Below are positions 34,629-37,423 of a DNA stretch of 43,863 nucleotides, one piece after another. The DNA comes from Thiobacillus sp. GTDB lineage: Bacteria; Pseudomonadota; Gammaproteobacteria; Burkholderiales; Thiobacillaceae. The translations under genes were made by a program, and so were the position numbers. The notes below the pieces were generated by a model. The model was not told the origin of the DNA and searched no databases. It saw only the letters and a program-made list of their open reading frames with translations. The number at the start of each line of letters is the position of its first letter. Positions within the stretch are counted from its first letter, which is position 1. The stretch covers positions 1 to 43,863 of the forward strand of contig JANJWS010000037.1 of NCBI GenBank assembly GCA_024709425.1, read 5' to 3'.

Positions 34629-37423
34629 CCTTCACCTTCGATGCCCCATTCCCGTAGCATTGCCTCGACCTCCGCCGCCGGCAGAGGGCGGCTGAACAGG
34701 AAGCCCTGCACCTCGTGGCAGCCTGCCGCGCGCAGGAAGGCGAGTTGCCCCGCGGTCTCCACGCCTTCGGCGATGATGCCGAGGCGCAGGCTCTTGGCAA
34801 GCTGGATGATGGCGCGGACGATGGCGTCGTTGTCGGGGTCGGCGTTGACTTCCTGCACGAAGGAACGATCGATCTTCAGCCGGTCTACGGCGAAGCGCCT
34901 GAGGTAGCTCAACGAGGAATAGCCGGTACCGAAATCGTCAATCGACAGGCGCACGCCGAGCGCCTTGAGCGTCCGCACGGTGTCGAGGGTGTGCTCCACA
35001 TCCTGCAGCAGGATGGATTCGGTAAGTTCCAGTTCGAGCAGACGAGGCGGCAATCCACTGCGCTGGAGCGCGCCGGAGACGGCCTCGACGAGGCCGGCGC
35101 GGCGGAACTGCATGGCGGAAAGGTTCACCGACATCACGAGCTCGGGCAACCCCGCGTTGCGCCAGGCCTGTGCCTGCCGACAGGCCTGCTCCAGCACCCA
35201 CGCGCCGATCGAGACGATGAGGCCGCAATCTTCGGCCACCGTGATGAAACGTGCCGGCGACACCGCGCCGAGGTCGGGATTGTTCCAGCGCAGCAGCGCC
35301 TCCGTGCCGATCACCCGCCCGCTGAGGGTATCCACCTGCGGCTGGTAGTGCAGGTGAAGTTCCGCGCGGTAGAGCGCCTGGTGGAGGCGGTTCTGCAGCA
35401 TCAGGTGCTCGTGCGCCTGACGGTTCATCTGCTCGTCGAAGAAGCGGTAGGTGTTGCGGCCGGCGTTCTTGGCGTTGTACATCGCCGTGTCGGCCTTCTG
35501 CAGCAGGCGGTCGAAGTCTTCCCCGTCCTCCGGGTAGATCGCGATGCCGATGCTGCACGACGCGCTCAACTCGTGGCCGCCAATCGACACCGGCTCGCCG
35601 AGCTGTTCGAGAATTTCGCCGGCGACCCGCTCGACCGCTTCCTGGTCCGGCACGGAATCGAGCAGCAGGATGAATTCGTCTCCCCCCTGGCGGCTGATGG
35701 TGTCGCTGTGACGGGTGCAGCGCGCAAGACGGGTAACCACCGAAAGCAGCAGCTCGTCGCCGGCGGCGTGGCCCAGTGTGTCGTTGACCACCTTGAAGTT
35801 GTCGAGGTCGAGAAACAACAGCCCCACCCGCGATTGCGCGCGCGCCGCCTGGGCGACCGCATGCTCGAAGCGATCGCGCAGCAGCACCCGGTTGGGCAGG
35901 CCGGTGAGCACGTCGTGGTGGGCCAGGTACTCGATGCGTTCCTCGGCCTGGCAGCGTTCGGTGACGTCGCGGTCCACACCCTGAAAACCCGCCAGTTTTC
36001 CCTTTTCGTCGAACACCGGGGCGGCGTTCGATTCAAAGATCCGGTAGCTTCCATTGTGGTGACGCCAGCGCAGCGCCACGTTGGACCAGCCGCGCTGCCC
36101 CGCCACGGCCTCGGCCAGCGTCGCATGGAACAGCGCCAGATCCTCCGGATGCACGACCTCCTCCGGGTGCCTGGCCATGAACTCGCCGATGTCATAGCCG
36201 AGCGCGGCAATACCACGCGGGTTGCTGTAGAGATGCCGCCCGGATACGTCGATCAGCCAGATCCAGTCGGTGGATTGTTCGGCAAGTGTACGGAACCGCA
36301 CTTCGCTGGCGCGCAAGGCCTCTTCTGCACGACGGCGCTCGGTGATGTCCTGGCAGGCCCCGTACAGGCGATGTCCGCCGGTGAGGGGATCCGCCACCAC
36401 CAGCGAATAGGCACGGATGTAATGGACCCCACCGTCCGGCGCCAGAATGCGAAGCTCGCATTCGCTGCGTTGCCCCGGTTCGAGGCCGGTGACGTTGCGG
36501 TCGAACTCGGACAGGTCCTCCGGATGCACGAAGCAGCGCCAGCAGCCACGCTGACGGATTTCCTCGATCGAATAGCCGAAGATGCGATCGACAGAAGAGC
36601 TCGCCCAGTCGATCGCGAAACGGCCATCCGCCCCGCGTACACAGGAATACAGCAAATCGGTGGAGACGCTGGAAATGAGCCGGTAGCGCTCCTCGCTTTC
36701 GCGCAGCGCCGCTTCCATGCGCTTGCGCTCGCTGATATCGACGAAGGTGACCACCGTACCGACCACCTGGCCATTCCGGTACAGGGGTTGCGAGCGGTAT
36801 TCCACGGGGAGACTGGTGCCATCCTTGCGCCAGTGCACCTCGTCATCGACGTGGCACGCTTCGCCCGCCAGCGTCGCGAGCCGTACCCGGCATTCGCTCT
36901 TCGGATAGGGACTTCCGTCCGGGTGGGTATGGTGAATCAGCGCGTGGACCGCATGGCCAAGCATTTCCTCACGGGTGTAGCCGAGCATCTCGAGACAGGC
37001 GCGGTTGACGAAGGTGCAGATGCCCTCGGTGTCCACCCCGAAGATGCCTTCGGGCGATGAATCCAGCAGCAGGCGGAAGCGCTCCTCGCTCTCGCGCAGG
37101 GCAGCCAGCGCGGCCGCCTGCCCGGCGACCGAGACCGGCCGCCCGACCGCCCGGCGCACCGCGCCCGGATCCTGGCCCGCCGACAGCAGCGCGCGCGCCA
37201 TTTCACGCTGCTGCCGCGCCGCGTCCAGCGCCACATCGGGGTATACACCCAGCGCCAGCGTCTTGCGCTTGCCGTCATAGCGATAATCCAGGCGCCAGTA
37301 CCGCGAGCCATCCGGGCGCACCAGCAGATACATGCCGCCGCCGTCGGCCAGCTTGAGTGGCCTGGCAGCCGGCACGGTCTGCCGGATGCATTCGTCGGTG
37401 AGCGGAATGGCGGTCCGGGCCAT
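34601..37423 (-). CDS. Integrase arm-type DNA-binding domain fused to triple PAS-GGDEF-EAL
   Basis: A 940-residue protein with no membrane segment. Residues 1-90 match the DUF4102 arm-binding domain of P4-type tyrosine integrases: LTDECIRQTVPAARPLKLAD, GGGMYLLVRPDGSRYWRLDY, KRKTLALGVYPDVALDAA, then an ALLSAGQDPG end. No integrase core or catalytic domain follows. Three PAS domains come next (about 110-480), the first starting RESEERFRLLLDSSPEGIFG. The GGDEF domain has RQGGDEF near residue 578 with I-site-type RHSD. The EAL domain has [25 protein letters not shown] and AEGVET. The frame is continuous, so the fusion is real in this sequence. It could be a DNA-binding c-di-GMP enzyme. The C-terminal EGSRVESGER tail is encoded by an intergenic repeat. 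The ribosome binding site is weak. Confidence 0.9.
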   Translation of the reverse strand: MARTAIPLTDECIRQTVPAARPLKLADGGGMYLLVRPDGSRYWRLDYRYDGKRKTLALGVYPDVALDAARQQREMARALLSAGQDPGAVRRAVGRPVSVAGQAAALAALRESEERFRLLLDSSPEGIFGVDTEGICTFVNRACLEMLGYTREEMLGHAVHALIHHTHPDGSPYPKSECRVRLATLAGEACHVDDEVHWRKDGTSLPVEYRSQPLYRNGQVVGTVVTFVDISERKRMEAALRESEERYRLISSVSTDLLYSCVRGADGRFAIDWASSSVDRIFGYSIEEIRQRGCWRCFVHPEDLSEFDRNVTGLEPGQRSECELRILAPDGGVHYIRAYSLVVADPLTGGHRLYGACQDITERRRAEEALRASEVRFRTLAEQSTDWIWLIDVSGRHLYSNPRGIAALGYDIGEFMARHPEEVVHPEDLALFHATLAEAVAGQRGWSNVALRWRHHNGSYRIFESNAAPVFDEKGKLAGFQGVDRDVTERCQAEERIEYLAHHDVLTGLPNRVLLRDRFEHAVAQAARAQSRVGLLFLDLDNFKVVNDTLGHAAGDELLLSVVTRLARCTRHSDTISRQGGDEFILLLDSVPDQEAVERVAGEILEQLGEPVSIGGHELSASCSIGIAIYPEDGEDFDRLLQKADTAMYNAKNAGRNTYRFFDEQMNRQAHEHLMLQNRLHQALYRAELHLHYQPQVDTLSGRVIGTEALLRWNNPDLGAVSPARFITVAEDCGLIVSIGAWVLEQACRQAQAWRNAGLPELVMSVNLSAMQFRRAGLVEAVSGALQRSGLPPRLLELELTESILLQDVEHTLDTVRTLKALGVRLSIDDFGTGYSSLSYLRRFAVDRLKIDRSFVQEVNADPDNDAIVRAIIQLAKSLRLGIIAEGVETAGQLAFLRAAGCHEVQGFLFSRPLPAAEVEAMLREWGIEGEGSRVESGER

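Follow-up and report, generated by a model that had tools for sequence, protein, structure and literature searches.

Why a bacterial signalling enzyme should carry the DNA-binding head of a mobile-element integrase is the question raised by one gene in a stretch of 43,863 nucleotides from Thiobacillus sp. (contig JANJWS010000037.1, positions 1 to 43,863; hereafter the window). The minus-strand open reading frame (ORF) at 34601-37423 encodes a protein of 940 residues in which the arm-type DNA-binding domain of P4-type integrases precedes three PAS domains and the GGDEF and EAL domains of enzymes that turn over bis-(3'-5')-cyclic dimeric guanosine monophosphate (c-di-GMP). The fusion is conserved within the genus Thiobacillus, and the fused genes are preceded by direct repeats of the word TGACGGTA, the very word that a residue-to-base code derived from integrases predicts for this arm. 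As one explanation of these observations, capture of the 5' end of an integrase gene, binding of TGACGGTA by the arm and regulation of the gene's own transcription together make a probable account. The parts of the gene are as follows, with the basis of each assignment in brackets.

34601-37423, minus strand: fused gene, Arm-DNA-bind_3 - PAS - PAS - PAS - GGDEF - EAL, 940 residues (ORF, Pfam, alignment with 20 homologues)
37148-37402, minus strand: arm-type DNA-binding domain, residues 8-92, with the predicted read-out residues D46, R53 and T55 in two long strands (Pfam, residue-to-base code, AlphaFold2, Foldseek)
37085-37147, minus strand: linker, residues 93-113, of low AlphaFold2 confidence and running into the first PAS domain (full-length model)
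35954-37084, minus strand: three PAS domains, residues 114-490, a sensor part that varies among homologues (Pfam, alignment)
35453-35923, minus strand: GGDEF domain, residues 501-657, with the GGDEF motif and the RxxD I-site motif intact (Pfam, motif scan)
34685-35392, minus strand: EAL domain, residues 678-913, with EALLRW and other EAL motifs present (Pfam, motif scan, alignment)

The match of the N-terminus to PF13356 (Arm-DNA-bind_3/DUF4102) covers profile positions 1-82 of 83 with an E-value of 1e-23 and a score of 83.7 bits, the curated cut-off being 27 bits. An initial annotation of the locus had assigned the first ~90 residues to a DUF4102 arm encoded at 37138-37423, continuing in one open frame into three PAS domains, GGDEF and EAL and lacking an integrase core. 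The ORF and the Pfam search bear out this assignment, its coordinates and the succession of domains, and no integrase core was matched by Pfam in the window protein or in the six homologues scanned. With neither a core-binding nor a catalytic domain matched, the window protein falls outside the tyrosine integrases, and an integrase pseudogene is ruled out by the intact frame and the absent core. By sequence and fold it has instead the trait of a trigger enzyme, a DNA-binding-type head on a c-di-GMP enzyme. The 20 aligned homologues are 69-77% identical to it, and the motifs RxxD-5-GGDEF, EALLRW, VNLSA, DDFGTG, LKID and AEGVE are present in all 33 fused proteins of the genus, with ELTES in 31 of them. 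Judged by these motifs, the window protein is a bifunctional GGDEF-EAL enzyme with predicted cyclase and phosphodiesterase activities.

The AlphaFold2 model of the arm domain, with a predicted local distance difference test (pLDDT) value of 89, places residue 46 in a strand formed by residues 41-49; a second strand, of residues 52-61, contains residues 53 and 55. A Foldseek search of the PDB with this model gives three matches at E ≤0.001, namely 3ju0, 3jtz and 3rmp (E 1e-8 to 2e-7), all of them arm domains of P4-like integrases, and a sequence profile built from 17 fused arms also retrieves 3ju0 and 3jtz/3rmp. The origin of the head in a mobile element, as the initial annotation had proposed, and its retention as a DNA-binding module are well supported by these matches. 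In the full-length model, pLDDT falls below 50 at residues 92-119, which fits a flexible connection from the arm to the PAS region.

Distribution and conservation of the fused gene

When 60 relatives were searched, long open frames bearing this N-terminus turned up in the same genus. The family was scanned in 117 genomes from 12 genera, 56 of them Thiobacillus and 61 from elsewhere in the family, and an intact fused frame, each one read, is present in 33 of the 56 Thiobacillus genomes, with a broken frame in one more (G007). The 61 other genomes show no fusion among the matches listed, the longest open frame there being integrase-like with 684 residues. Likewise, among the matches listed from a scan of 300 genomes of the order, fused frames occur only in its two Thiobacillus genomes, and the longest non-fused frame has 601 residues. 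Across 84,980 named species genomes, the best 80 of 202 confirmed arm relatives comprise 29 intact fusions, one broken fusion and 50 arms without GGDEF. The intact ones are labelled Thiobacillus, Thiobacillaceae, Hydrogenophilales or as generic bins, and for one bin labelled Rhizobium the contig agrees in length and position with that of a Thiobacillus genome (G004). Frames of 575-684 residues in G013, G101, G116 and G097 were considered as further fusions of an arm to a signalling protein and rejected, as by eye they resemble integrases with C-terminal extensions.

When placed among 106 integrase arms, the fused arms form a single clade with support of 100/100; the fusion appears, from these sequences, to have arisen once in the Thiobacillus lineage. 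The fused forms range from 808 to 1231 residues, and a GAF domain (GAF_2) and extra PAS domains are present or absent between the arm and GGDEF. Among the first 92 arm positions, 31 are invariant across the 33 copies, including D46, R53 and T55. In 16 disjoint pairs, the ratio of nonsynonymous to synonymous substitution rates (dN/dS) lies between 0.05 and 0.43 for the arm and between 0.03 and 0.73 for GGDEF-EAL, the highest value, from L029-L244, being perhaps too large owing to an indel, since the comparison is ungapped. In G007 (L034/L120), the fused gene is split into an arm frame of 127 codons and a separate long PAS frame, through either a real mutation or an error in the bin.

A putative operator and a residue-to-base code

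Alignment of the regions upstream of the fused genes brings out a putative operator and two less distinct boxes.

37466-37485, minus strand: putative operator 62 bp before the ATG, two direct TGACGGTA copies (37478-37485 and 37466-37473) at a 12-bp interval (upstream alignments)
37502-37510, minus strand: TTCGTACCA box upstream of the repeats, semi-conserved by eye (upstream alignment)
37451-37456, minus strand: TAnnAT box (TAAGAT), downstream of the repeats and possibly a -10 element (consensus of 33 upstream regions)

The consensus upstream of the fused genes is TGACGGTA-N4-TGACGG(C/T)A, and this pair or a decayed form of it stands 62-68 bp before the start codon in 32 of the 33 genes. In a strict recount that permits C or T at position 7 of each copy only, 19 genes have no mismatch, eight have one, one has two and five are worse; 27 of the 33 pairs have at most one mismatch. 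The 30 pairs with up to three mismatches all begin 62-68 bp before the ATG, as do the decayed pairs of L046 and L030. Information per base amounts to 1.70 and 1.46 bits in the two copies, compared to 0.69 in the spacer, 0.31 in the upstream flank and 0.54 in the downstream flank. When 40 genomes of the genus were scanned with two mismatches permitted, all nine perfect TGACGGYATNNNTGACGGYAT matches were found in front of a fused gene. A looser exact pattern yields 34 pairs in 24 of the 56 genus genomes; 19 of these pairs stand before a fused gene, and a reversed-pattern control yields none in the same 56 genomes.

DUF4102 integrases have similar repeats before the start codon; where a pair is present, it is mostly direct with a period of 12-13 bp, and by eye an inverted copy often accompanies it. 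Their words differ (TGACGGTA, TGGGGGTA, TGGGGGCA, TGTTGGTA and others), and a Sulfuricella integrase (L151) has TGACGGTA/TGACGGCA repeats with a period of 12 at -64. Because these integrases bear similar repeats in front of their start codons, the fused gene seems to have kept the whole 5' end of an integrase gene, arm sites and arm domain together.

The relation between arm residues and site bases was derived from integrases and tested on held-out ones (L080-L099, L133-L213, L221-L240 and L259-L351 for both sets). The site finder required only GG (positions 5-6), C or T (position 7) and A (position 8), and left position 4 free. Usable rows with a site pair numbered 77 of 110, a 41-residue fragment having been dropped, and 58 remained after dereplication at 88%. 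Contig-end fragments included, 72 of the 77 match PF00589 (Phage_integrase, catalytic) and 75 match PF22022 (central domain). Among the 58, the base at site position 4 follows arm residue 53 (window numbering), with R paired to C in 24 of 25 cases, E to G in 22 of 22 and Q to T in 7 of 7, so that the code fits 53 of the 54 integrases with one of these three residues; in the four with Y, F or H the site base is G. Mutual information with position 4 is highest at residues 53 (1.34 bits) and 46 (1.24 bits), and that with position 7 at residue 55 (0.59 bits), where R goes with C. Read across the base pair, the code sets R with G, E with C and Q with A, which is reasonable chemistry. Close relatives that differ at residue 53 differ in the site base as well (L096/L235/L229/L098, L186/L191, L142/L168), which argues against pure shared descent.

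For the held-out test, the rule was fixed beforehand and applied to new viral loci. From 91 arms in 93 loci, 23 with less than 100 bp of upstream sequence, 17 without a site and 23 near-copies were removed, leaving 28. Position 4 is correct in 26 of 27, the best of 10,000 permutations reaching 21, and position 7 in 26 of 28; one of the 28 arms has D53, for which the rule gives no prediction. L346, with a doubtful site at -172, is missed at both positions and L342 at position 7.

D46, R53 and T55 occur in all 33 fused arms, and this is the combination predicted to read TGACGGTA, the word actually found upstream of the fused genes. Copies substituted at arm positions 42, 48 or 52 (L037, L046 and L252) are among the five genes with the worst sites, which is suggestive of a joint decay of arm head and site, although L037 and L046 are sisters and L030 and L247 are unchanged at those positions. 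Such a code would allow the arm sites of genomic islands to be predicted from protein sequence. In the open literature on integrases, none of the titles or abstract openings listed describes a code of this kind, though no dedicated search by name was made.

Some integrase loci contain short arm-only ORFs as well. Those at L161:3960-4427 and L202:2983-3465 (~155-160 residues) end where a full integrase gene starts and, in unrelated loci, have a C-terminal tail of a common type, RLSM..LTL..Q..A.R.FL.AT. Similar short arm ORFs precede integrases in G075, G087, G091 and G193. They are possibly regulators of the integrase that bind its arm sites.

Proposed autoregulation and its alternatives

In the proposed course of events, a P4/SXT-type (DUF4102) island integrase gene would have contributed its 5' end, comprising promoter-proximal arm-type sites and the arm domain, to a PAS-GGDEF-EAL gene. 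The arm hairpin would still bind the TGACGGTA repeats, with R53 placed at the C:G pair that forms position 4 of the site. The protein presumably acts as a dimer, as is usual for GGDEF-EAL proteins, and its two arms, each on a flexible linker, would face two direct sites lying one 12-bp step apart. Occupancy upstream of its own gene would then control its own transcription, and repression is the more probable direction if autoregulated integrases are a guide. Both the binding of TGACGGTA and the autoregulation are what we infer from sequence. The PAS/GAF sensors and the binding or turnover of c-di-GMP may in addition shift the occupancy of the DNA in a manner similar to PdeL of Escherichia coli. 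The initial annotation had suggested that c-di-GMP turnover could be tied to a promoter, or that the state of c-di-GMP could govern DNA binding; the link to a promoter gains cognate arm-type sites in front of the gene itself, and the coupling of DNA binding to c-di-GMP or PAS input stays speculative. A broader version, in which PAS/GAF input and c-di-GMP would switch the hold of the protein on arm-type sites both at its own gene and at the promoters or attachment arms of resident TGACGGTA-class island integrases, appears rather unlikely; if it were true, c-di-GMP, a lifestyle messenger, would gate the mobility of islands.

Several observations weigh against capture and autoregulation as set out above. 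The site pair is lost or badly damaged in five of the 33 fused genes (L037 and L247 with three mismatches, L046 with four, L030 with five and L252 with eight), and as L030 and L247 show no change at the checked arm positions, autoregulation would not be universal. A scan of the upstream region found no sigma-70 consensus promoter, so that the overlap with a promoter and the sign of regulation stay putative. No fused gene was detected in 22 of the 56 genus genomes; several of these are incomplete, yet completeness reaches 99-100% in others, among them G010 and G012. Two of the 33 fused proteins lack the ELTES pattern and two lack the C-terminal QG-L-S pattern, and the full-length model, with a predicted template modelling score (pTM) of 0.37, is uninformative on coupling. 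Regarding the code, the finder detected no site pair in 32 of the 110 integrase rows, and the code therefore rests on the 77 usable rows (58 dereplicated); R53 arms number only three in the held-out set, for which E53 and Q53 baits were used. In the case of the integrase IntS of prophage KplE1, repression of its own gene is not relieved by single mutations of arm sites, the site overlapping the -10 element not being cleanly testable, according to the sections of that study considered here (PMC2951348).

The arm could alternatively serve as a chromosomal tether or an island guard on resident TGACGGTA-class islands, where it would compete with their integrases or silence them, autoregulation being secondary. 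According to the code, the fused arm should indeed read the same word as integrases that have D46, R53 and T55, and 15 of the 34 exact pairs in the genus lie away from the fused gene. Eleven of these were read (all but G119:C56, G120:C16, G006:C206 and G125:C24:31362), and seven of the 11 have a common block resembling the end of a mobile island. In this block (L100-L103, L106, L108 and L253), a TGACGGTA-N4-TGACGGTA pair is followed ~90 bp on by a AACAATTGAGTGGGA-like boundary; L100/L101 and L103/L253 are identical in sequence up to this boundary, which resembles an attachment site, and divergent beyond it. The block looks like the end of a family of mobile islands in the genus. Two of the 11 pairs (the second site of L101, and L105) have more repeats nearby, one (L104) lies upstream of a glutamate-synthase-like frame and one (L109) inside an open frame. 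A similar flavoprotein-like frame is the next gene in four of the seven island-end-type pairs, which may mark a regulatory site, and no second regulatory target is established among the 11. Pairs away from the fused gene are also found in genomes in which no fused gene was detected (G006, G012, G020 and G119, G012 being 100% complete), so such sites are not targets that arrived with the fused gene. Of the 33 copies of the fused gene, 27 retain the upstream pair. A primary role as tether or guard is, in our judgement, unlikely.

Distinctly unlikely is an arm that persists as an inert leftover of the fusion on an otherwise ordinary PAS-GGDEF-EAL enzyme. The gain and loss of PAS and GAF modules between arm and GGDEF, and the copies with altered arm residues or decayed sites, would fit such a relic, but 31 of the 92 arm positions, D46, R53 and T55 included, do not vary, arm dN/dS is below 0.45 in all 16 pairs and conservation extends to the cognate sites in front of the fused genes. 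That the three copies altered at positions 42, 48 or 52 have sites among the five worst also speaks against a relic, only suggestively as two of them are sisters. Finally, the window contig comes from a fragmented genome bin with 109 contigs and 6% contamination, in which an assembly or sequencing join could create a false frame. The initial annotation had considered this, along with a missing DUF4102 match; the match is strong, and the search for the same architecture returned 32 other intact copies in separate genomes, one of them on a single 3.0-Mb contig (G023), which refutes an artefact and makes a false frame exceedingly improbable. Capture of an integrase 5' end with autoregulation thus remains the reading that we prefer.

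Gene neighbourhood and relation to known systems

Directly upstream of the fused gene lie two histidine kinase genes (37622-42021, minus strand) with dCache-HAMP-GAF and PilJ-like-HAMP-PAS architectures. A conserved operon was not found, as the two kinases have no counterpart at 40-45% identity in the flanks, some of them short, of the other loci. Nearby and convergent to the fused gene is a dCache-HAMP-PAS-GGDEF-EAL gene (28419-32159, plus strand), which seems to recur downstream elsewhere together with an AAA_33 protein (32980-34485) and an S30AE-like protein (32293-32964). Convergent frames recur downstream in some loci, with AAA_33 in 9 of 32, ORF picking being crude in G+C-rich DNA. ARAGORN calls a transfer-messenger RNA at 36944-37447 on the plus strand, opposite the fused gene; the call is probably spurious, given the high G+C content of this coding DNA.

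Searches of the open-access literature, with most subscription papers and bioRxiv preprints outside their reach, found neither DUF4102 together with GGDEF nor the phrase 'arm DNA-binding domain' together with integrase and diguanylate cyclase, and the word integrase is absent from two c-di-GMP reviews (PMC10333796 and PMC12564702). This agrees with the initial annotation, which knew of no described protein of this kind. Enzymes of c-di-GMP turnover with a DNA-binding head are already known, those of the PdeL type having other heads; what is new is an integrase arm as the head of such an enzyme, with a traceable origin and a putative operator. It provides a c-di-GMP enzyme with a named candidate DNA address and offers a case of domestication in which integrases and a signalling protein can be set side by side for their read-out residues, DNA word and spacing.

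DUF4102 is the arm domain of the IntSXT subgroup of integrases, according to the portion of the study drawn upon (PMC8138268). P4-type integrases of this subgroup share with the fused protein the PF13356 arm, the kind of site word, the 12-bp spacing and a similar place before the start codon; in the fused protein, a signalling enzyme replaces the core-binding and catalytic domains. The structures 3ju0 (HAI7) and 3jtz and 3rmp (HPI / P4-like integrase) have the same arm fold, with 50-53% identity over the Foldseek alignment, and are isolated integrase parts; the title of 3rmp names the recognition of attP substrates by P4-like integrases. According to the same sections of PMC2951348, IntS lowers the expression of its own gene, the promoter of which overlaps attL and its arm-type sites. 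It is thus autoregulated like the fused protein as proposed, and differs in being a recombinase, in its arm word (TAAA core) and in the additional use of its sites for recombination.

PdeL (YahA) of E. coli is, like the fused protein, a c-di-GMP enzyme with an N-terminal DNA-binding domain. As described in the relevant part of PMC5052742, it binds to the promoter region of its own gene and is self-activating, an effect that high c-di-GMP inhibits, which makes it a precedent for an enzyme of this kind that regulates its own gene in a c-di-GMP-dependent manner. PdeL consists only of a LuxR-like helix-turn-helix and an EAL domain and binds an imperfect palindrome, whereas the fused protein has the beta-sheet head of an integrase arm, for which direct repeats are predicted, in addition to PAS/GAF sensors, a GGDEF domain and an EAL domain.

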